Source of the DNA: Peptococcaceae bacterium
GTDB lineage: Bacteria; Bacillota; Desulfitobacteriia; Desulfitobacteriales; Syntrophobotulaceae
Length of the DNA: 34,428 nucleotides
Direction: 5' to 3'
Assembly: GCA_009778595.1 (NCBI GenBank)
Contig: WRJI01000020.1
Span: forward strand, 1 to 34,428
The first letter of the stretch is position 1, and each line of letters opens with the position of its first letter. Positions 10,935 through 22,697 of the stretch are shown piece by piece. Below the pieces are notes generated by a model, which worked only from the letters and a program-made list of their open reading frames with translations, was not told where the DNA came from and searched no databases. The position numbers and the translations under genes are program-made.

Positions 10935-13900
10935 TTAGTGATTAATTGGCTTGGAGGCGGGTGTTTTTCGTTCCAAAGGCCACTCTTTCTGAAATGGGGA
11001 GGTTCTCCCATATTCCGGTCCCGACTCGAAGGGATACTGTCTGGCATATACCATAAATCCTCGTCCATAAACATCGTGGCGGCTTCTTGCGTGCATTTCC
11101 TGTCGTTTGGCATAGGCCGGTTCAATTGAATACAGAAACTGAATCTCCGCCCAAGTTGACATTCCTTCGTAAACCATGGGGGTATTCTTTTCGCCATACC
11201 GGGCAATGATTTTTGTTCTGTCCCAGTTGATGAGCTGCCATATATGTGTCAATTCGTGGACAATGTTTGCCATGGCGGCGATCTTGGGCGCACCGTTCTC
11301 AATGGTGATAGCGTACCCCTTCGGTTCTTTGGCAGCAAAAGCAAGGGCCCGGCTTTTATATTCCGGGGATTGAACAAAAGGCACGCCTGTGAGTTCCGCA
11401 ATCTTTCCGGCATCGGCCATGCGGAGCTTGATGGGGGCTTTGATGCGGATTCCATACAGTGTTTCCATATGGCGGAGAGCATATTCGTACAGTTGATAGA
11501 ATTTCTCAACAGTTTTCAGAGATGATTTCGCGCACTGGGGACAACGTTCGCGGCCGTCGGCCAATACGTCATATTCGCCTCCGGCTAATCCGATACCGCA
11601 GAAATCGCAGAAATGAATGACGGAGGATGCGGGCGTTGTTGCGCCGGGCAGACCTTGAGCGGGCAGGGCGCCTGGGTCCGGCGAAATGTCGGTGATATGA
11701 CGGTTCTGTTCGGAGCTCGCACGGGCTTGTTCCAGCGCGTTTTTATCGTAACCGTAACAGGAAAGAAACCGTAAGGTTTCCTGAACACTGAGCATGGGGT
11801 CAACTTGGCTGTATCCATAGAGAAGGAAGCAGCTGTCTGCGTATTTTTTAGGCAGCGTCAACGGTATAGTCTCCTCAACATTGTCCTGCTGAGACGCTGC
11901 GGTTACAGAGGCTGCTGAGGGGCCGGAGCGGGGCAACCGACCCTCATACCACGCCAGGCAGTCGGTAATGATCTCAAGGAATCGCGTGAGATTGCGGTCA
12001 ACGGAAACAAGCAACCCCAAGTCGATGTCACAATCCTCGATAATGTAGACGGCGTCCTCATCTGCGAAACCGTCCAGATGCAGGGGACTCATTATGTCCG
12101 CAATAGGGGATACACTGCCGGCGTCTCTAACAACAGTGGCTGTTATATACTGGTGGCTCTCCGGGTATAGGGTCACAAAAATCTCATTGAGCATCAACGC
12201 TATGGTGAACCGCACTTTCTCACTGACCCCCATCAGTTTCAGACGCAGCACCGCTTTGTTCTTATACCGCCGGGGAGGGATGCTGCTCAAATCTACCCGG
12301 TGGGCAGATGCGAGATTGTCCAAAGATGTGAGATCATAATAACCCTGAGTCGTCACCCCAATATCGCAGAATCCACGGTTCAACTCAAAACCCTTTCCTG
12401 TGCGCCGGGATCCCATGGCCGGATCCTGTGCAAACCCGGAAAGGGAATATTCCCGGCGCTGCCGGTAGGCCTTTCGGTCTGTTATATGATCGGCCGCTCG
12501 GCGCAGGACGACACCGCTTTCCGGGGTGATGGTCTGTACCTGATAATATTTTCCCGAGTAGGTCAAGAATTGACCGGGCAGATATTTTTGGAACACTTGA
12601 CCGTAGAGCATGGCTCCAAGATAATAGTTTTTGTCTTTGTCGTCCTCGATAATGAAATAAGCGTTGGAGAAAGTGCGGGCATAGTCCGCCAGTTGGGTGT
12701 CGTTGTCAAGGATGGCGTAATAGATGGATTTCACCAGCTCCATATCGTCGCCGATGATCTCGTCCCGGAAGCAGGGTGCGATAGAGACAGTATCCACATG
12801 GCAGTGTTTGATGACAAGCTCGCAAAGCTTATGGAAGGGGTCGCAGAACTCTATTCCGGCTAGGGACAACTTGTGTTTCAACTCCGTTTCGCTGATACAG
12901 CCGCCAAACATTCCCATGATGAGTTCAACCACCGTGTTTTTCTCTGTGCGGGTGTAATCCGCAACGATTGAGGGAATGACCTTGGAATCGGTAGCAAAAA
13001 GTGAGGCGTTGTCTATCATATAATCCCGCAACAGGTAATTCTCGCTGATGACATTCACGAATCCTTGTTTTTTGGCTCGGGTGGCGTAAAGGCGGGTCAT
13101 TTCAAAAAGGTTGTTGAATTCATCTTCAACAGTGATGAAGACGTTGTCCTTGGTGTCCAGGTTCCAAAGATTTGATTCGACTCGGAAGGCTCCGGCTAGA
13201 GCTTCTTGGCTCTGGGGGAAGTTAATGTACCGGCAGATGGTTTGGTGATATTGCCCGGCAATCCAGCGGATATCCAGTACAGGGAAACGGTCGCTGCTTA
13301 CCCAAAGTGTCTTGGCAACCTGATTTCTTAGAGCTACAGCGGATAATTCGGTTCCTACCCCCAGATAATGCGCGATGTTGGGCAGGATTGTATGGTGCAG
13401 AAAATTCCCGTGGGCGTTCCAGTACATCAGAGAACAGTTCGCCGGGGAGGGAACCGTGGCGAAGACTTCCGTCAGGTTGACTTTGAGGATATGGGAAAGG
13501 GTATCAACAAGACCGTCACAGTTGCGGTCACAGGAACAATAGACGATATTGTCGGAACCTTTCGCGAGTCGGTCACCAAGAAGAGTCAGGCCGGTTTGGC
13601 CGGTGGAGATGATTCGGGAGGGTTCGATCAGAAGGACGAATCCCACCTGATCGAGAAACGCCGCGCCGGCCTCTAATACTGATCGGTTGTAGACGTCGGC
13701 AAACCGGAGAACAGCCACATCCCACCCGGTTTCTTGCTCGGTTAGAATCCCGGTTTTCCACAATTCCGACGTCCCGCATGTTGCGGCAATACCTTCGTGG
13801 AGCCAACACCGCACATCTTCGGCGGCGCTGTCCCGCCCAACGATGATCAGGGCTTTGTCATAGGAAAGGAGCCGTCGGACAAGGGGGAGGATGATATACC

Positions 13901-14822
13901 CTGTCAGGTCTTGATAGAAGGGCACATTCAGAAGGACGGATTTCCCGTTGGCCATATCGATGGAAGCCCGTACGAATCCGGGGTCTACGGTTTGGCCTTT
14001 TCCTTTGAGAGCCGAAAAATACCCGGAGACAACAACATCTAATTCCTTCGTGCTGTCAGCGAGGGTGTCGAGCATATCAAATGAGGACAGTCCCGAAAGA
14101 GCATCGGCTTGGTTGTCATAGAGGATCCGGTCGTCAAACAAATCGTGAAAGACCCGGCGCAGCATACCATAGTTGGTGACCCGATATGATTCGTCAACAT
14201 CGCCGTTTATGTCCGGTGAATCCTGCCCGGTGGGACCTGACAGGAAGAAGAAGATCTCACCCAGAACCAGGATCCCAAAAACCGGGTAAAAAGGCGTCCG
14301 GAAAACCAACCAATCAGGATAGAGCTGTGAGAGAGCCAGGATCAGGGATGAAATGCCGATACCGAACCAATAGAACCCTTTCCACAGAGCTTTAGCCTGA
14401 CCGAATTCCTTTTTGAGGATCCACATGTCCTCGTATTCGCTGAATTCATAGATTTTGCCGGAGATGTAATGGAATAAGAAGCCGGGTTTGCTCCAGATCT
14501 TATCGATTAAGGGCAGGAGGGTGGATTTAAGGGCGAGGAAGAGCAGGATCAGGAGGATGTTATTAATAAGGCCTGCCCATGGGGTCAAAAAAAGGAGAGG
14601 CGGGACGTATTCACCAATGGTTTCCAGAATAACGGTGACCAGACCGGCGGTTTGGTCGGCAAGGAGTAGAGCGGGAATACTATAGAGGACCGCCACCAAG
14701 GGCATAAGGAATTGCTTCGGACGGTTCTCTTGATCCAGGTTCGCCTTGCCGGACAGTGCCAGGAGCAACACAAACAGACCGACAGCAAGACCCGTTATGA
14801 TTAATTCGGTTAGTAGAGCCAT
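10935..14822 (-). CDS. 1295-aa polytopic protein: helicase-like middle, zinc ribbon and HELTH metallopeptidase domain
   Basis: Last gene of the operon. About five or six membrane segments lie at roughly 3-22, 39-56, 58-80, 88-106, 151-168 and 177-195. The long soluble part opens with a segment (about 225-460) resembling a superfamily 2 helicase core, with KSVLLNVPFYQDLTGYI, KALIIVGRD, WDVAVLRFADVYN and VGFVLLIEPSRII. It lacks a Walker A motif and a DEAD box (IEPS instead), so it is probably not an active helicase; this reading is tentative. A zinc ribbon follows: C1072-x2-C1075 and C1094-x2-C1097. The C-terminal domain has H1189-E-L-T-H1193 and, 26 residues on, E1219 in VYEGMSTWAE, a gluzincin-type zinc peptidase layout. 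A LIM-like ribbon before such a domain recalls DA1-type peptidases. AAAGGAG overlaps the preceding stop (5-bp gap). Confidence 0.75.
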   Translation of the reverse strand: MALLTELIITGLAVGLFVLLLALSGKANLDQENRPKQFLMPLVAVLYSIPALLLADQTAGLVTVILETIGEYVPPLLFLTPWAGLINNILLILLFLALKSTLLPLIDKIWSKPGFLFHYISGKIYEFSEYEDMWILKKEFGQAKALWKGFYWFGIGISSLILALSQLYPDWLVFRTPFYPVFGILVLGEIFFFLSGPTGQDSPDINGDVDESYRVTNYGMLRRVFHDLFDDRILYDNQADALSGLSSFDMLDTLADSTKELDVVVSGYFSALKGKGQTVDPGFVRASIDMANGKSVLLNVPFYQDLTGYIILPLVRRLLSYDKALIIVGRDSAAEDVRCWLHEGIAATCGTSELWKTGILTEQETGWDVAVLRFADVYNRSVLEAGAAFLDQVGFVLLIEPSRIISTGQTGLTLLGDRLAKGSDNIVYCSCDRNCDGLVDTLSHILKVNLTEVFATVPSPANCSLMYWNAHGNFLHHTILPNIAHYLGVGTELSAVALRNQVAKTLWVSSDRFPVLDIRWIAGQYHQTICRYINFPQSQEALAGAFRVESNLWNLDTKDNVFITVEDEFNNLFEMTRLYATRAKKQGFVNVISENYLLRDYMIDNASLFATDSKVIPSIVADYTRTEKNTVVELIMGMFGGCISETELKHKLSLAGIEFCDPFHKLCELVIKHCHVDTVSIAPCFRDEIIGDDMELVKSIYYAILDNDTQLADYARTFSNAYFIIEDDKDKNYYLGAMLYGQVFQKYLPGQFLTYSGKYYQVQTITPESGVVLRRAADHITDRKAYRQRREYSLSGFAQDPAMGSRRTGKGFELNRGFCDIGVTTQGYYDLTSLDNLASAHRVDLSSIPPRRYKNKAVLRLKLMGVSEKVRFTIALMLNEIFVTLYPESHQYITATVVRDAGSVSPIADIMSPLHLDGFADEDAVYIIEDCDIDLGLLVSVDRNLTRFLEIITDCLAWYEGRLPRSGPSAASVTAASQQDNVEETIPLTLPKKYADSCFLLYGYSQVDPMLSVQETLRFLSCYGYDKNALEQARASSEQNRHITDISPDPGALPAQGLPGATTPASSVIHFCDFCGIGLAGGEYDVLADGRERCPQCAKSSLKTVEKFYQLYEYALRHMETLYGIRIKAPIKLRMADAGKIAELTGVPFVQSPEYKSRALAFAAKEPKGYAITIENGAPKIAAMANIVHELTHIWQLINWDRTKIIARYGEKNTPMVYEGMSTWAEIQFLYSIEPAYAKRQEMHARSRHDVYGRGFMVYARQYPFESGPEYGRTSPFQKEWPLERKTPASKPINH

Positions 14823-14827
14823 CGCGG

Positions 14828-16948
14828 TTAGACTCCTTTCTTCTCGTAGATTTCCTCACGGATAAGACACAACCCGGAAATGAAGCTGTAGGGCGCATCG
14901 AGAGGTTCACCGGTGTTGTCCAGTTTCAAGGTCTTCGAATCCGTGTTGGGCACAAGTTCATACAAGGGACTGGCCGACGGATGCTCCTGCAAAAAACGGT
15001 CGGGGATACTTATGAAAGGGTTATTCAGAGCGGGGGTATCGGTGGGGATCCCGTGCAAAGAGCATAGGAGCCTGCTCAAGGCGATCTCATCCTCCAGGGC
15101 GGCCATATGAGCCTTGCGCAGTTTCTCCGCCGCGGTGTCGCTGTCTTGTTTCAACCGGGACCCCATAAGCAATGAGCGGGCATACATATAGGTGCAAACC
15201 TTAGAAAAATAGTCGCCATAGACTTGAGCGCCGGCATTGGCTTGGTCAAAAACAGCGATCACGGTTTCATTGTAGGTTTTGATTTTCTTCAATAGTTTTC
15301 GGCGCACGGCCCACAGAATCAGGAGGCCGCCTACCGCCAGGAGCCCGAGAGCCGACCCGGTCAGACCCAGGGAAGCCCAGAAAACGTTCCGGCTCATATC
15401 CCAGGCGTTGATCAGGTAAGGCACAAAACCGCCGAGGAAAATGATTAGGGCGAACAGAGAGATGTAGAGGATGTTGCGTTTGGTTAGGCGCAGACCCAAG
15501 GATTGGCGGACAGTCTGCCCGGCTGCGTCAATCTCCGCCATATAGACATTGGGATCGAGAAGTCCGTAGATTCTGGCGTTGATAATCCGGGGCTCAAGCT
15601 CGTCCAGTCGCCTTTGGATCCGCTCGATCTGAAACCGGTCCAGGGTTTGTTCTTTGCCGGCAAAACCGGAGATCCTGTTGCGGGTTTCGATAGCTTTGGC
15701 GGCCACAAGCTCCCGGAGGCCTGACAAAAGGTGTTCGATCTTCCGGTTGGCTTCTTGTTTGTGCTCGCGCCAAAATCGTATTTCCGGGATGGGACAATCC
15801 GAGGCGAGACCCAACATAGTCGTGTCTGCGACGATCGTCTCATCGTCAAGAGGTTCAAATCTGACCGAGACTTCTTGCATCGGCACAAGGTCTTTTCTGT
15901 CGGTGGTGACCTGGGAGGCGCGTTGTTTCTGTTCTTGAAGGATGCCTTGAATGGAGAGCAGGTTGGCCCGGTGGTTCTCAAGCACCCTGGCAAGTTCACC
16001 GCTCTTTATACTGAGATCGGCTCTGTACAGATGGTAGGCCTGGAGGGCCTGGCTGGGGATCTGATTGATCGCCAAGGTGAGGGTCAACAGGCACAGCCGC
16101 CAGAGTTCCCTGGGATACAGGGTGTGTTCCCGGTTGATCAGATCGTAACAAAGGAAGCGGCATGTGTTGGGGTAGATCTTCCAGAACCCGGAGCTGTCTT
16201 TCTCATCATGGAAATTCCAGGCATGGTTGACGGCCTGGCGGGTGGCTTCCCTGTCGTCTGTCGCGAGGATTTCTCTGGTGGATAACACAAGAATTTCTAC
16301 AGGGCGGTTTTCTTTGAGGGCGTACTTCCTGGTCAGACGTCTGTATTCGGTTTTTTCCTTCTCGGAGTAGGGGACTTCAAAGAGGCGCAGCTTGATATGA
16401 CCTCCAAATCTCTCAAATACTTTTTCGTAGTCTTCGGGGGCGAGAGTCCCCACATCGCTTTCCAGGATAGGAGTCCCATCTTCGTGGAGGCAATCTAAAA
16501 AAGCCCCGGTCTGTTCATCGTAATAGGTATAACCCGTCGCATAATCTTTGACCCCAAGGGAGGGAAACCCCGCCAACATATGTGTCAAGCGAACCAGGGG
16601 TATCGGGTTCTCCTGAATCAACAGGTCAAAACTATGGTTGCAGACAAAATCGAAAGGGTTGTGGGGGCTATAGAGGGCCAAGCTGTTGTCGGCCAGGCTG
16701 TCGCCGGCCAGGCTGTTGTCAGCCATACCATCTCCAACCGAGTTGACAAATATTATGGCCCGCCATTCCGGGTACCCTTTGATGGATTTATACAGTTCGG
16801 GAACAGCCTGTTCAATATCGGTTCCGGCTTCATGCCAGGAACACTGGCATACGCTGCCGCCCCGTTCAGGGAGAAAGGGGGCGAATAACCGCCTATGTGT
16901 GGCAAATAAGGCAGTCGTATGCTGATCGGTGATAATGACGGTGTGCAT
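14828..16948 (-). CDS. 706-aa coiled-coil protein with two membrane segments, operon partner of the tubulin-like protein
   Basis: Not recognised as a named family. The N-terminal part (1-70, HTVIITDQHTTALFATHRR to EWRAIIFVN) looks like an alternating alpha/beta fold. It is interrupted by a three-unit repeat (residues 76-90, ADNSL/AGDSL/ADNSL). A mostly helical region follows, with a charged coiled-coil-like stretch at about 395-455. Two membrane segments (about 493-513 and 524-547) form a hairpin, leaving both large ends on the same, presumably cytoplasmic, side. The C-terminal 150 residues are helical and soluble. The start is supported by GGAGGGAGGG just upstream. It lies 30 bp after the tubulin-like gene and 5 bp before the 1295-aa gene. 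A membrane adaptor or scaffold role for the tubulin-like protein is inferred from context only. Confidence 0.75.
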   Translation of the reverse strand: MHTVIITDQHTTALFATHRRLFAPFLPERGGSVCQCSWHEAGTDIEQAVPELYKSIKGYPEWRAIIFVNSVGDGMADNSLAGDSLADNSLALYSPHNPFDFVCNHSFDLLIQENPIPLVRLTHMLAGFPSLGVKDYATGYTYYDEQTGAFLDCLHEDGTPILESDVGTLAPEDYEKVFERFGGHIKLRLFEVPYSEKEKTEYRRLTRKYALKENRPVEILVLSTREILATDDREATRQAVNHAWNFHDEKDSSGFWKIYPNTCRFLCYDLINREHTLYPRELWRLCLLTLTLAINQIPSQALQAYHLYRADLSIKSGELARVLENHRANLLSIQGILQEQKQRASQVTTDRKDLVPMQEVSVRFEPLDDETIVADTTMLGLASDCPIPEIRFWREHKQEANRKIEHLLSGLRELVAAKAIETRNRISGFAGKEQTLDRFQIERIQRRLDELEPRIINARIYGLLDPNVYMAEIDAAGQTVRQSLGLRLTKRNILYISLFALIIFLGGFVPYLINAWDMSRNVFWASLGLTGSALGLLAVGGLLILWAVRRKLLKKIKTYNETVIAVFDQANAGAQVYGDYFSKVCTYMYARSLLMGSRLKQDSDTAAEKLRKAHMAALEDEIALSRLLCSLHGIPTDTPALNNPFISIPDRFLQEHPSASPLYELVPNTDSKTLKLDNTGEPLDAPYSFISGLCLIREEIYEKKGV
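16680..16724 (-). repeat. Three 15-bp in-frame tandem units in the 706-aa gene
   Basis: 16680-16694, 16695-16709 and 16710-16724 are near-copies of AGGCTGTTGTCGGCC. Each adds five residues (ADNSL or AGDSL) without changing the frame. Confidence 0.85.
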
Positions 16949-16978: not shown

Positions 16979-19900
16979 TTACCCTTCGCAAAACTGTTGT
17001 TTGGAGAAGTCGTTGATTTTGTCGGCCATTTCAGAGAATCCTTTGCTGATCAGGACTTTTATGAGGACTTGCAGAAGCATCCGCAGATAATCGTCTATGA
17101 TCGAGGGGTGTTTCTCCTTATAGAGCTCGAAGTTGTTGACGAACAAATCCAGCTGTTCTTGAATCAGCCCGGTATAGGTGGCGTCCCGTTCGTTTTCGGG
17201 GCAGAGGATACCAATTTGTTCGTAGAGAGCTTCCAGAGTGGTTTCCAAAAGCATAAGACCTTGTTCCAGAATGAAGTCGTCCGGGGGCATGGTTGCTTTG
17301 AAAGCCGCGGCGATACCGAAGATGCTCATGCGGCGGTTTTCTCCGGAAAGCTCCCGCAGGGTGAAGGTATTGAGCCCTTTGTAGAGGGCACCTTCTTCGT
17401 ACTTAACCACATTGTCTTTGCGAGCGGTTTCCAGTTCGTTGTCCACAGCGCTGAGGATTCTTTTGACCACCACCGGGTTGATAGTGAGGGCGTCGATGAT
17501 GCGGTAGAAGGTGTCACAGGGGGCTCCTGTGGAAACCTCAAGAGGAATTTCTTTGATGCTGTCTTTGAGCCAAAGGCTGTATTTATACTTTTCACCGGTT
17601 TTTTCGTAGCGAATGCGTTCGTAGAGCAGACCTAACACAAGGGCCTTGAAAATGTTTCTCTCTTGTTCTCTTTGGAGTTCGTCGTTGAGGTCGGGCATTT
17701 CGGAGATGAGGTGCCAGTGTTTATGCAAATGGGGGGTAATGACCGGCGTGGTGAGGGTGTTGGGTTCGATCCGGTTGATCATATCGAAGTAGGCTTTGTT
17801 GTATTCGCCGGCTTCAAGGACGACGGTCTTGCTTTTTTGTGGTGGGGAGAATTTGAGAAGATCGTAGGGGAATAGGCCGTAGATGGCGCTGTAGAAGAGA
17901 ATCCGCTCGATATCAATCTCGTCATCTTCACTGGGAACGCCGCCAAAGGTAAGGAGTTCGGCATTGACAAAAGACTCTCGCCTGGGGTTGTCGGTGAGAT
18001 AGAGTCTCTTATTGAAGGCGCAGGCGTGGATGGGTACGGGTTCTTCACCAACGGGTCTGTTGATAAAGGGGTCGGAAAGTTTTTTGGTGTCGGCTATGAC
18101 TTTTTTGACGTATTCGGTGATGAGGCTTCGTTCCCGAATGTCTTCCTCATATTCGGCTTCCACTTCCAAGGCCCGAATGATGTCCATTTTGATGTCTGTG
18201 CTGTAGGCTTCCATAACTGAGGTCTGAAAATGCCGTAGAATCTCGTTGTCGAAGATGTCTTTGAAAAAAGTGCCGGTGGCGGCTTCGGCCACCGTGAATG
18301 ATCGGACCTGGTTGTAGATCCTCATACAGAGGTCTCCGGGCAAATGGAGAGCGCTGCCGGTGAACTCCATTTTCTCGTAAAACTTGTCAAGGCATTTTTT
18401 GGAGGAACAGACGTAACGGACGGCACTGCCTTTGTTGTGGCGGTATTTTTCTTCTGAGGTTTTAATTTGCCGTTCAATATCGCTGACGTTGGTGTCGAAA
18501 GATTTGTAGAACAACTCAAAGGATTTGTTGAGGTCGCGGATATATTTGACGGCGGCTGTAAGGACGGCCACATAGGGTGCGTTGACGCGGTAATCGCCGA
18601 TGGTTGCCAGGAGGGACTCGTATTGTTCGGTATAGTCCATGATTTCACCGGCGAATTTCTTGGACATACGGGCCCAGAGACCGGCGTTGTCGATTTTGCG
18701 TAAGAAATCCCCAATGTTTTCCACAATATCGGTATCCGGGTCGTCAAACAAGGTGTCGAAGCGTTTAAATATTTTTTCGGCGAGATCTTTTTTCTTTTCT
18801 GCTTCGGCGAGTTTTTTCAGGAGGGTTTGGAGGGTTTGATAGAGGAAATAGCGGGTGGCGTTGGGATGCATGAATTCTTTGGCGTTGTCCCGCAGATAGG
18901 TTTCTATCTGTGTGGGCAGCCCGCCTAAGGTGACGTCTTCGTCTTCGTTGAATTTAAAAAGTTCATAGGCGGCCACCCGGCCGATGTCACCGACTCTCCG
19001 AACCACCAGTTCTTTGTAAGCTAACAGATAGTTGTAGGCGTTGCGGAAGATGTCCATGTCGGGTTTTTCTCTGCCCACCGAGGTAAGGGCTTCTACCGCG
19101 CTCTGCGCTGTGTCGCGGCTGTTATCGATTTCGCTTTGGCCGCTTCTGGCGATGCGTTGGACATATTTCATCAAAGCGTCGGCGTATTCAGTCCATTTGC
19201 AGCCGATCTCTGTAAAACCGTCTTTGTCAAAACGGTAGGAGGCGTTGCGGACAAACATGGCGAAGGCGTTGCCGTTTTCAGCGGCGGCGTCTACGGATCG
19301 GATATATTCCTGGGCCGGATCGATCTCTGCGACATTGTGGCCTTTGAGACGGGCCCGGTTATTCTCGACACTTTTCTTGTGGAAGTCCCGGTCAAATACC
19401 GTCCAGTGATCCGAGACGGTTTGGGCCGCCCATTTCAGGGCGATATAGCGGAGAATATGGTCGGAAGGGTAGACGAGTTCGGAAGCCCCGGCTCCGGCGT
19501 AGCGGTTGCGGCTCTGGCCGGATACCAGGGTGCGGATGGTGTTGTCTTCGGAAGAGTTGCTGCGGGTGTTCATGGGGCCGATGGATTGGGCGTAGATGCA
19601 GGTGGCGGCGTGATCCAGGTATTGTTCGGTGGAGTTGAGTTTCTTGCCTTCGATGTTCTGAGCGTCAAACATGAATGTGAAATCCATGGGGAGAACATCG
19701 TATTCTTCGAATTCGTTGGTGCCGACTTTGGGGAACAGTAAGTGAACCTTATCTTGGTAGCGTTGGGGCAAGTTGCCGTCGGCTTTTAGGATGAAGGCGT
19801 TGAGTTCCCGGAGTACGGCGTAGGCGTTGGCCTTGAAAGCGTTGCGCATAGGTTCGGCAGTGACGGCGCCGTAGAGAATTTCCGGCAAAATGAAGAAGCC

Positions 19901-20437
19901 GCGGGTGATGCTGCCGGGAATTTGGATTTTGGTTTTGAGAAATTGTTTGATGTACATGGAGATGGGCAGGATGAGTCCTGAACCGGTGCCCCCGGCCAGG
20001 GTGCTGACAATAATGACCCGTAGCACCTGAGCGCTTGGGGTGTTTTCCAGCTTGTACAGATCATAGATAGCGCTGTCCAGGGGTTCCAGGCAGCCCCGTT
20101 TCATGGCGGTCACGAAGGCGAGGTGAGATATGGCCCGGACTTGACCGGCGCCTTCGCTGAGGGTTTTGCGATACAGGTTGGGATTCACGGGGAAAGAGTT
20201 GTCTCTGGTGAATTCGTCCAGGTGCAGGTAGTCGCCGACGGTCATATTGGTTGAGGTCTGGACGGTGCGAATGAAGGGGTTATCTCTTTTGATCTTGTTG
20301 AGTTCGTTGACATCGGTGTCAAACACCACGAAATTTATGCGTTCCCGTTGTCGTTCATCGTTGATCATTGCCGACAATTTGGCTGTGATCTGTGATCCTA
20401 TACCGCCAAGTCCTATGATTAATGTTGGTGCTAACAT
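16979..20437 (-). CDS. Large tubulin/FtsZ-superfamily protein (Tubulin_2-like, FtsZl)
   Basis: The first ~220 residues show the tubulin-type GTPase signature: LIIGLGGIGSQ (7-16), VFDTD (38-42) and STLAGGTGSGL (145-155), the counterpart of the G-box GGGTGSG. NAYAVLREL (204-212) follows. At 1152 aa it is several times longer than FtsZ; the remaining ~900 residues are helical, soluble and unrecognised. No signal peptide or membrane segment is seen. The start at MLAPTLIIGLGG (20437) is fixed by AAAAAGGAGG about 7 bp upstream; an in-frame ATG at 20470 would add 11 basic residues and has no such site. Known context for such FtsZ-like proteins is a vWA protein and membrane remodelling, and a vWA gene precedes it here. 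It may polymerise in a GTP-dependent way beneath the membrane; this is inference. Confidence 0.85.
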   Translation of the reverse strand: MLAPTLIIGLGGIGSQITAKLSAMINDERQRERINFVVFDTDVNELNKIKRDNPFIRTVQTSTNMTVGDYLHLDEFTRDNSFPVNPNLYRKTLSEGAGQVRAISHLAFVTAMKRGCLEPLDSAIYDLYKLENTPSAQVLRVIIVSTLAGGTGSGLILPISMYIKQFLKTKIQIPGSITRGFFILPEILYGAVTAEPMRNAFKANAYAVLRELNAFILKADGNLPQRYQDKVHLLFPKVGTNEFEEYDVLPMDFTFMFDAQNIEGKKLNSTEQYLDHAATCIYAQSIGPMNTRSNSSEDNTIRTLVSGQSRNRYAGAGASELVYPSDHILRYIALKWAAQTVSDHWTVFDRDFHKKSVENNRARLKGHNVAEIDPAQEYIRSVDAAAENGNAFAMFVRNASYRFDKDGFTEIGCKWTEYADALMKYVQRIARSGQSEIDNSRDTAQSAVEALTSVGREKPDMDIFRNAYNYLLAYKELVVRRVGDIGRVAAYELFKFNEDEDVTLGGLPTQIETYLRDNAKEFMHPNATRYFLYQTLQTLLKKLAEAEKKKDLAEKIFKRFDTLFDDPDTDIVENIGDFLRKIDNAGLWARMSKKFAGEIMDYTEQYESLLATIGDYRVNAPYVAVLTAAVKYIRDLNKSFELFYKSFDTNVSDIERQIKTSEEKYRHNKGSAVRYVCSSKKCLDKFYEKMEFTGSALHLPGDLCMRIYNQVRSFTVAEAATGTFFKDIFDNEILRHFQTSVMEAYSTDIKMDIIRALEVEAEYEEDIRERSLITEYVKKVIADTKKLSDPFINRPVGEEPVPIHACAFNKRLYLTDNPRRESFVNAELLTFGGVPSEDDEIDIERILFYSAIYGLFPYDLLKFSPPQKSKTVVLEAGEYNKAYFDMINRIEPNTLTTPVITPHLHKHWHLISEMPDLNDELQREQERNIFKALVLGLLYERIRYEKTGEKYKYSLWLKDSIKEIPLEVSTGAPCDTFYRIIDALTINPVVVKRILSAVDNELETARKDNVVKYEEGALYKGLNTFTLRELSGENRRMSIFGIAAAFKATMPPDDFILEQGLMLLETTLEALYEQIGILCPENERDATYTGLIQEQLDLFVNNFELYKEKHPSIIDDYLRMLLQVLIKVLISKGFSEMADKINDFSKQQFCEG

Positions 20438-20475
20438 GGAGGGCCTCCTTTTTTGTTTAACGGGCGCCACCCGTC

Positions 20476-20513: not shown

Positions 20514-22697
20514 TTATCGCCGTTTCTTCTTTTTCTTACGTTTCTTAGAGAAGGAGCAAGTGTGGGTCGAGGAGATGCCGCCGCTGTAGTAGACGGATTT
20601 GATCCGGGCCGTACAACTCATTTCCTTCTTCTTGGTCGATCCCTCCGGCAAGGGTTGATCGTTAATGAAGAAATCGGTGCTGCCGAGGCGTTCCGGGGCA
20701 AAGTCCCCGGTGTTGGTCAGCTCCATACGTTCGTTGCCGACGGCTTTGATCTTCAGCGATGGCAGCGGTTTCCCGTCTGCCGCCGCGATCAATGTGCCTG
20801 ATTCCGGACAAAGAGGCAACCATTTGGTTTTGGAAATGATTCGAAACGAACCATATTTGGTGACTGTGTTGTAGTCTGATTCTACCAATATGGTTGGTTT
20901 AGCGGACATGTATTTCGGGAACCGTTTCTTTCTGCCCCAGAGGAGCCAGTACAATAAGACACCCATCAACAAGGCCAACAGCGGCCAGATTTTCTTCAGG
21001 ACATTGAGAAAACGTTCCCAAAACCCTATGTCATCTATAATGGTCACCGTGATCGTGCCTTGACCCCGATAAGGTTGTCGGTCATAGGTGAATTCGGCGG
21101 TGGCGGTAAGGATGATGTCGCCGGTTGAGGTCGCGAATTTGTCGTTGTTTTGTTGTTTGAGGAAAAACTCGTAGGTGGAGACGCCGGTCCCGTGCCTGAC
21201 TTCGGTAATAGCCACTTTGTCAACGGTGGTTATCGTCGGCAGGGGCATATTCTGCCATTGGTCCCACGTAAGCAAGGCGCCGTCTTGTTTGATGGTTACG
21301 AGAAAGGCGCCGGAATCGTTCAGGGTGGTCACAGTTAAGTCTTCGTTTGGCGCGGTTATGTCGATTTCCAGAGGAAGCGACGCCGAGGCGACACTCCGGG
21401 TGATGATGTGTTCGGCGGTGTTGATGTCCAAAAAGCGGGAGGAGACGGATATCGTCAAATCCCCGGGTGTGATGCTGACAGTATCACCTGATTGAATCGG
21501 AACGGTCTGATCGTTGTTCCGGTAAAAGGCGTCGTATTGGATTTTGCCGAGAAGAGAGGATTCAAAAAAGTCGCCGTTATCATCAATCATGCCGAAGCGG
21601 ATTTGATAGTCGCCCTCAGGGATATCCTGGCTGTCGATTTCTTCGCCGTTCTGATAGAGTTTGATATCAACATTGACATCCGGTTTATAATAGATATCAA
21701 CGGTTTGCGCTCCGGCGATATCCAAGGTGTAGGTGCCCTTGGGGATATTGCGGAAGGCGGCGATCATACCGGTCAGGTCACGGGAAATCACAACTTTCGG
21801 ATCGTTTCGATAGCTTGTCGAGGCAATCTCGCTGTACTGAACATAGACAGACTCGCTGAGGGTGTATGTGCGGCCTGTACCGCTGTTATTGCTGTCGCCG
21901 CCTGTGAGGGTATTAACCCGGACGTTGGCGCCTTGCGCGAAGACCAGAAGTTCCATCATCGGAATATCGAACGTGAACTCTTGTCGGCCACTGTTGGTGA
22001 AACTGAGCTGGTTTCTGTTGAAAATTCGATTGCAGATGGACGTAATTTTCCCAAGGATTTCGCTGCTGTTTGTGGCATGCTCAAAATAGATGTTCCTGCC
22101 GGGATCGGCGTGTATGACAGTGGCGTCGCGGCCCATAGCCAGGAACATGATTTTGATGTCGCCGGTGGAGACATACTGCGAAAAGAAGTCGTCCACATCG
22201 ATGGAATAGTTTTCCTTCCCGTCCAAATAGTTGAATTCTCCGTCGGTTAAGACGACCAGCCATTTTTCATCGGTGTTGGCTTTTTTGAGATCCTCATAAG
22301 CTTTAGCCACCGCGTCGAAGGGGGTTCCGGAGGAGGGGGTGACCGTATTGTGGATTTTGGCAACGCGGGTTTCGGCAGGTTCTGAGCCTGAGATGGTTAA
22401 TTTGGGAGGCACGCTGGTATTCGCGGATACCATGAAGTCGCTCATATAGTAGACGCTCATGGTGTCTTTCTCTTCCAGCATAGCGGCAAAGACTTCCATG
22501 GCGTACTTTGCTTGTCCCCATCTGTCAAGGTATGTGTCGTTGGCGTCGATGATCATGCTGCTTGAATCGTCATACACAACATTAATGGTTTTGCTGCGTT
22601 GATTGGTGGTGTAGGCTTGGGCGGTGCGGGAATGCATAGGTATGGATAAGGCACAGAAGAGGAAGAGGCACATAAGTAAGGAAACCGGTTTTTTCAT
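20514..22697 (-). CDS. Exported, membrane-anchored vWA-domain protein
   Basis: First gene of the four-gene operon. A signal peptide (about 1-28, cleavage after AQA) leads into a vWA domain (about 36-230). Its metal-ion-dependent adhesion site is complete: D43-x-S45-x-S47 in VVYDDSSSM, a Thr in SSGTPFDAV (about 125) and an Asp in VVLTDGEFN (about 148). A long beta-rich stretch (about 230-560) follows. One membrane segment (about 570-590, IWPLLALLMGVLLYWLLW) ends in basic residues. The last ~137 residues form a presumably cytoplasmic domain with a Lys/Arg-rich C-terminus. This topology puts the ligand-binding domain outside and a tail inside that could contact the tubulin-like protein. AGGAGGACTC directly precedes ATC-ATG. 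Confidence 0.88.
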   Translation of the reverse strand: MKKPVSLLMCLFLFCALSIPMHSRTAQAYTTNQRSKTINVVYDDSSSMIIDANDTYLDRWGQAKYAMEVFAAMLEEKDTMSVYYMSDFMVSANTSVPPKLTISGSEPAETRVAKIHNTVTPSSGTPFDAVAKAYEDLKKANTDEKWLVVLTDGEFNYLDGKENYSIDVDDFFSQYVSTGDIKIMFLAMGRDATVIHADPGRNIYFEHATNSSEILGKITSICNRIFNRNQLSFTNSGRQEFTFDIPMMELLVFAQGANVRVNTLTGGDSNNSGTGRTYTLSESVYVQYSEIASTSYRNDPKVVISRDLTGMIAAFRNIPKGTYTLDIAGAQTVDIYYKPDVNVDIKLYQNGEEIDSQDIPEGDYQIRFGMIDDNGDFFESSLLGKIQYDAFYRNNDQTVPIQSGDTVSITPGDLTISVSSRFLDINTAEHIITRSVASASLPLEIDITAPNEDLTVTTLNDSGAFLVTIKQDGALLTWDQWQNMPLPTITTVDKVAITEVRHGTGVSTYEFFLKQQNNDKFATSTGDIILTATAEFTYDRQPYRGQGTITVTIIDDIGFWERFLNVLKKIWPLLALLMGVLLYWLLWGRKKRFPKYMSAKPTILVESDYNTVTKYGSFRIISKTKWLPLCPESGTLIAAADGKPLPSLKIKAVGNERMELTNTGDFAPERLGSTDFFINDQPLPEGSTKKKEMSCTARIKSVYYSGGISSTHTCSFSKKRKKKKKRR

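Follow-up and report, generated by a model that had tools for sequence, protein, structure and literature searches.

A predicted membrane pseudo-helicase with interchangeable protease modules is encoded in a tubulin/vWA operon of Bacillota

The window analysed here, a 34,428-nucleotide stretch of DNA from a Peptococcaceae bacterium, carries four tightly packed genes that encode, in order, a vWA protein (P4), a tubulin-like protein (P3), a two-TM protein (P2) and, as the last gene, P1 (Table 1). The gaps between them are short, with 43 bases between P4 and P3, 30 between P3 and P2 and 5 between P2 and P1. Ribosome-binding-site-like sequences precede P4, P2 and P1, and a promoter-like site, recognised by consensus match only, lies ahead of P4. 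An initial annotation of this DNA had described P1 by itself, mentioning neither its location on the minus strand nor the operon. The GTP loop of P3 is intact (AGGTGSG at 159), as is the MIDAS of P4 (DDSSS at 43). The first in-frame GTG of P3 has no ribosome-binding site and homologues start at the position of Met12, which is probably the true start. P2 has no Pfam matches, and P1 gave no match above cut-off in Pfam, NCBIfam, PADLOC or PDB sequences, the PDB sequence searches returning chance-level matches only, with no helicase among them.

Table 1 Features of the P1 operon in the window (unprefixed coordinates) and the recurrent neighbour at other loci.
Feature	Coordinates	Strand	Basis
P1, membrane pseudo-helicase/zinc-ribbon/HExxH protein, 1295 aa	10935..14822 (frame 10938-14822)	-	single open frame; homologues
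P1 residues 7-188, five hydrophobic segments	14259..14804	-	hydropathy and loop charges, 20 homologues
P1 residues 205-460, RecA lobe 1 of SF2-helicase-like type, lacking Walker A and DExH	13443..14210	-	profile alignment, model, Foldseek
P1 residues 301-309, PFYQDLTGY at the place of motif I (PTGxGKT)	13896..13922	-	family and helicase alignments
P1 residues 399-402, IEPS at the place of motif II (DExH)	13617..13628	-	family and helicase alignments
P1 residues 461-965, conserved across homologues, no fold assigned	11928..13442	-	family alignment and low-confidence model
P1 residues 1072-1097, zinc ribbon CxxC(18)CxxC	11532..11609	-	Cys invariant 12/12; weak zinc-ribbon Pfam matches
P1 residues 1189-1193, HELTH, predicted zinc ligands H1189 and H1193, catalytic E1190	11244..11258	-	invariant 12/12
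P1 residue E1219, predicted third zinc ligand	11166..11168	-	invariant 12/12
P2, 706 aa, two hydrophobic segments near 495-545	14828..16948	-	no known family
P3, 1163 aa, tubulin-like FtsZl1 (Tubulin_2, PF13809, E 6e-53)	16979..20470	-	Pfam cut-off passed
P4, 727 aa, signal peptide, vWA domain, one hydrophobic segment, basic cytoplasmic tail	20514..22697	-	sequence; relative matches PF00092
RyR-like neighbour	L043:3-1898, L044:1671-3413, L045:15444-17216, L054:4330-6600, L004:14419-16359

The membrane segments first attributed to P1 are evident from hydropathy as five N-terminal stretches, all of them before residue 190. Loop charges, compared over 20 homologues, predict that the N-terminus lies outside the membrane and that residues after about 190 lie inside. 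AF2 models of P1, built from three aligned sequences, reached mean pLDDT values of only 38 and 44; within the conserved central region, the low-confidence model contains a winged-helix-like H-H-H-E-E run at residues 625-705.

The lobe that follows the membrane segments had been described as part of a dead helicase core. For residues 205-460, the helicase reading is moderately supported by profiles, secondary structure and low-confidence fold matches. When profiles were compared with those of 33 helicases taken from related genomes, the E value was 0.0055 for the family as a whole and 3.8e-4 for its distant branch, against 0.16-0.77 in the reversed control, and the alignment is collinear over the regions of motifs I, Ia and II, extending to motif III in the distant branch. 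In one-by-one comparisons of the lobe with 241 proteins, helicases were enriched towards the top of the ranking (Mann-Whitney p about 8e-4), the top two entries being short matches to non-helicase proteins; one distant P1 member also matches PF00270 at E 0.1. The predicted succession of strand SVLLN, loop PFYQDLTGY, helix, strand ALIIVG, helix, strand VAVLR, helix and strand FVLLIEPS resembles RecA lobe 1 of SF2 (DEAD/DEAH) helicases in its strand and helix order, as in its collinear motif regions, and the elements over residues 320-400 are the best-predicted part of the lobe model, at about 60 pLDDT. Foldseek searches with this low-confidence model returned mostly SF2 RecA-1 lobes (HERA, rck/p54, Mtr4, Hel308, MrfA and CshA), several at probability 1.00 and the best at E 7e-3; because the AF2 models are poor, we take these matches as support and not as proof.

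Unlike SF2 helicases, the P1 family has neither Walker A nor DExH box, shows no detectable second lobe and carries attached membrane segments. The family alignment lacks both boxes in the lobe of every homologue: PFYxDLTGY is the family form of the motif-I replacement, IEPS or other residues occupy the place of motif II, and the pattern [AG]xxxxGK[ST] is absent throughout P1. An NGKS sequence before PFY was considered as a displaced P-loop and rejected, as it precedes the strand rather than following it and the distant branch does not conserve it. The helicase alignments bear out the earlier observation that the ATP-binding motif is missing and that IEPS stands at the DEAD-like position. Of the proposed dead core, only lobe 1 (about 205-460) draws support, from profiles and from Foldseek with the low-confidence model; for a second RecA lobe the profile comparison gave no signal. 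The first lobe is very probably helicase-derived and incapable of canonical ATP binding.

At the C-terminal end, HELTH, E1219 and the four-cysteine ribbon (C1072, C1075, C1094 and C1097) are as the initial annotation had described them. E1219 falls 26 residues after the second His of HExxH, within VYEGMSTWAE in the window's P1 and YEGM.KW.EIQ in the family. In an alignment of 12 homologous C-terminal regions that share 32-63% identity with that of the window, the two His, the catalytic Glu, the downstream Glu and the four ribbon Cys are all invariant, and HELTH is therefore not a chance motif. Over the whole family, HExxH is kept in 17 of 22 members (as HELIH in L050), so that it is lost in five only, and not in most homologues. 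Those five are the deepest members, in which the motif is eroded to RELTH (L058 and L059) or to RMITE or RIIAE (L132-L134). The deepest three, L132, L133 and L134, have the zincin site erased and retain the zinc ribbon and a transglutaminase triad.

In DA1 ribbon-peptidases, a cysteine ribbon is followed by HExxH and then by a downstream Glu in a helix, and P1 shares this layout. Membership in DA1 was rejected, as the cut-off of PF12315 is unreached by any member: three of the 12 match at E up to 1, the best at 0.036, with L011 scoring 11.3 of 25 bits. Scanning 83 genomes from the class for PF12315, without a positive control, also gave no match. The best Pfam matches of the zincin are to DUF6782, DUF6055, BSP and, weakly, DA1 (PF20573, PF19527, PF04450 and PF12315), with L043 reaching 21.4 of 27 bits against DUF6782 as the best of six members scored. 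The HExxH helix is common to P1 and the first three, and some of the flanking region to P1, DUF6055 and BSP. As all these matches fall below cut-off, the C-terminal domain is a predicted zincin that forms a family by itself and resembles DA1 in layout; a Foldseek search with the C-terminal model returned nothing usable. Of the ribbon-peptidase originally likened to DA1, the conserved ribbon and HExxH...E arrangement therefore stand, and the kinship reduces to a resemblance of layout.

Protease modules vary among the homologues. A transglutaminase-like domain with Cys-His-Asp present follows the zincin in nine of them, including all five that have lost the zincin site, and in L054, which keeps HExxH, a neighbouring gene encodes a stand-alone transglutaminase-like protein whose N-terminus is of lipoprotein type. 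In L004, a copper-amine-oxidase-N/S8 subtilase/Big_2 region is fused before the first membrane segment; the predicted N-out/C-in topology fits a subtilase outside and a zincin inside. The ribbon-peptidase is itself a separate, overlapping gene with its own ATG in L004, L051 and L053, the split falling at the acidic linker before it (L004:13089-13150, L051:1443-1510 and L053:8562-8707). A frameshift or sequencing error was rejected as the origin of the split, given that the second gene's own ATG overlaps the stop by about 8-17 bases in all three cases. The protease module of P1 is exchangeable, and the best reading of P1 is that of a pseudo-helicase platform in the membrane that bears interchangeable proteases, with a cytoplasmic zincin.

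The subtilase fused outside the membrane in L004 would also suit a role of P1 and its proteases in processing or gating exported proteins, as accessories of a secretion or surface machine. Directly after P1 in L043 lies a gene (L043:13849-18426) for a 1525-aa FtsK/SpoIIIE-type ATPase with two ATPase stretches, resembling a type VII secretion ATPase, which points the same way; however, this neighbour occurs at that single locus, where no small secreted WXG100-type gene was recognised, and we regard a secretion role as very improbable. Other neighbours were seen as well. A recurrent one (Table 1) has hydrophobic segments at its N-terminus, TrkA-like Rossmann regions and, at its C-terminus, a RyR-like part (EHRRWNAYM), and in one case matches PF02026 at E 1e-5, just below cut-off. 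In a Peptococcaceae MAG, a 3018-aa open frame directly after P1 (L003:13029-22085) encodes what looks like a cyclic glucan synthase/GH94-type protein.

Relatives of P1 are known from about 20 Bacillota genomes, at identities to the window's P1 from 66% down to about 16%. P1 was present in two of 61 close genomes and, among 300 genomes from across the phylum, in one more; in the order to which this last genome belongs, it was found in 17 of 295 genomes, or in 20 of 295 when the profile was that of the family's helicase region. A scan of viral contigs yielded no P1 relative. The order vWA-tubulin-P2-P1 recurs in all 17 loci with enough flanking sequence, P2 of the most distant loci being assigned partly from position, with one exception, G002 of the same genus, in which vWA and tubulin (L086) and P2 and P1 (L003) are on separate contigs. 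The L004 operon (contig JAITFK010000074.1) comes from a MAG labelled Treponema, with tubulin and P1 60-65% identical to the window's; either the operon was transferred horizontally or the contig stems from a different gut bacterium and was mis-binned.

Operons pairing FtsZl1 with vWA proteins were described in 2010 by Makarova and Koonin, who proposed a role in membrane remodelling (PMC2875224). The present operon resembles them in its Tubulin_2 (PF13809) protein with a GTP loop and a long alpha-helical tail, its adjoining vWA gene with an intact MIDAS and its membrane proteins, and differs in that no GTPase, kinase or OmpA gene was recognised in it. A protein like P1, with a dead helicase lobe and a ribbon-zincin, was not found in the article text of that description. 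On the published proposal, the tubulin-like protein would deform the membrane, with P1 and P2 as anchors and the peptidase maturing or recycling the complex; the FtsZl1, vWA and membrane-protein composition of the operon agrees with this, as do the deep homologues that retain the scaffold and lose the zincin site. Against it, protease modules of differing folds recur on P1, which suggests that proteolysis is an output rather than housekeeping, and we consider membrane remodelling fairly unlikely.

Firmicutes tubulin/vWA systems with GTPase and GAP1 partners have also been described, and were classed as conflict systems (Kaur et al. 2020, PMC7159879). By analogy with their GTPase/tubulin and MoxR-vWA systems, the complex would sense infection or damage, with the proteases as effectors of an anti-phage or self-limiting response. 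The P1 operon shares with the GAP1-N2 systems (PMC7159879) its occurrence in Firmicutes, a tubulin with a helical/coiled-coil tail and a membrane-bound vWA protein, and the effector-like swapping of protease domains and the patchy distribution (20 of 295 genomes of one order) would suit such a role. It differs from them in having one tubulin instead of two and a fixed four-gene order with P2 and P1, and membership was rejected on the absence of the DO-GTPase2 partner (PF19993) from all 18 P1-bearing genomes; the same search did detect it in G006 and in C. glutamicum, which served as control. G006, of the same family, carries a locus of the Kaur type (L084) that lacks P1 and combines DO-GTPase2 with a vWA gene and two tubulin-like genes. 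PADLOC, moreover, matches none of P1-P4, and no classical defence genes were recognised beside the operon, which leaves a conflict system an unlikely explanation. Neither a dead helicase nor a DA1-like protease is mentioned in connection with tubulin systems in the article passages of PMC2875224 and PMC7159879 compared here. Tubulin/vWA operons are already known, and P1 and the GTPase-less subtype were not found described in those passages; P1 or P2 may be among the unnamed 'B' families listed in the 2010 supplement.

The initial annotation had suggested a scaffold or ligand sensor controlling proteolysis, an idea made more plausible by an operon that includes a vWA and a tubulin-like protein. 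We tentatively favour P1 as the membrane-anchored, protease-bearing subunit of a four-protein complex around the tubulin-like GTPase, a reading to which we give slightly less than an even chance. In such a complex, the vWA protein would read a signal outside the membrane and the tubulin-like protein would assemble on its cytoplasmic face, while the dead helicase lobe of P1, instead of acting as a motor, would provide a platform to which P2 or the tubulin binds, and the ribbon-zincin would cut a cytoplasmic protein upon complex assembly. A broader reading, conceivable and somewhat unlikely, is a class of bacterial machines that use a tubulin-like filament, linked across the membrane to a vWA receptor, to control proteolysis by way of a pseudo-helicase platform with exchangeable ribbon-zincin, transglutaminase-like and external subtilase modules.

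A literature search found no experimental function for FtsZl1/vWA operons, and a fixed, protease-bearing partner gives them a concrete, testable output. If true, a membrane-bound helicase lobe that lacks its ATP site in every member of a family would be a seldom-seen way of reusing the fold. The operon suggests a bacterial machine about which little is known, whose tubulin-like scaffold may control the cutting of proteins.
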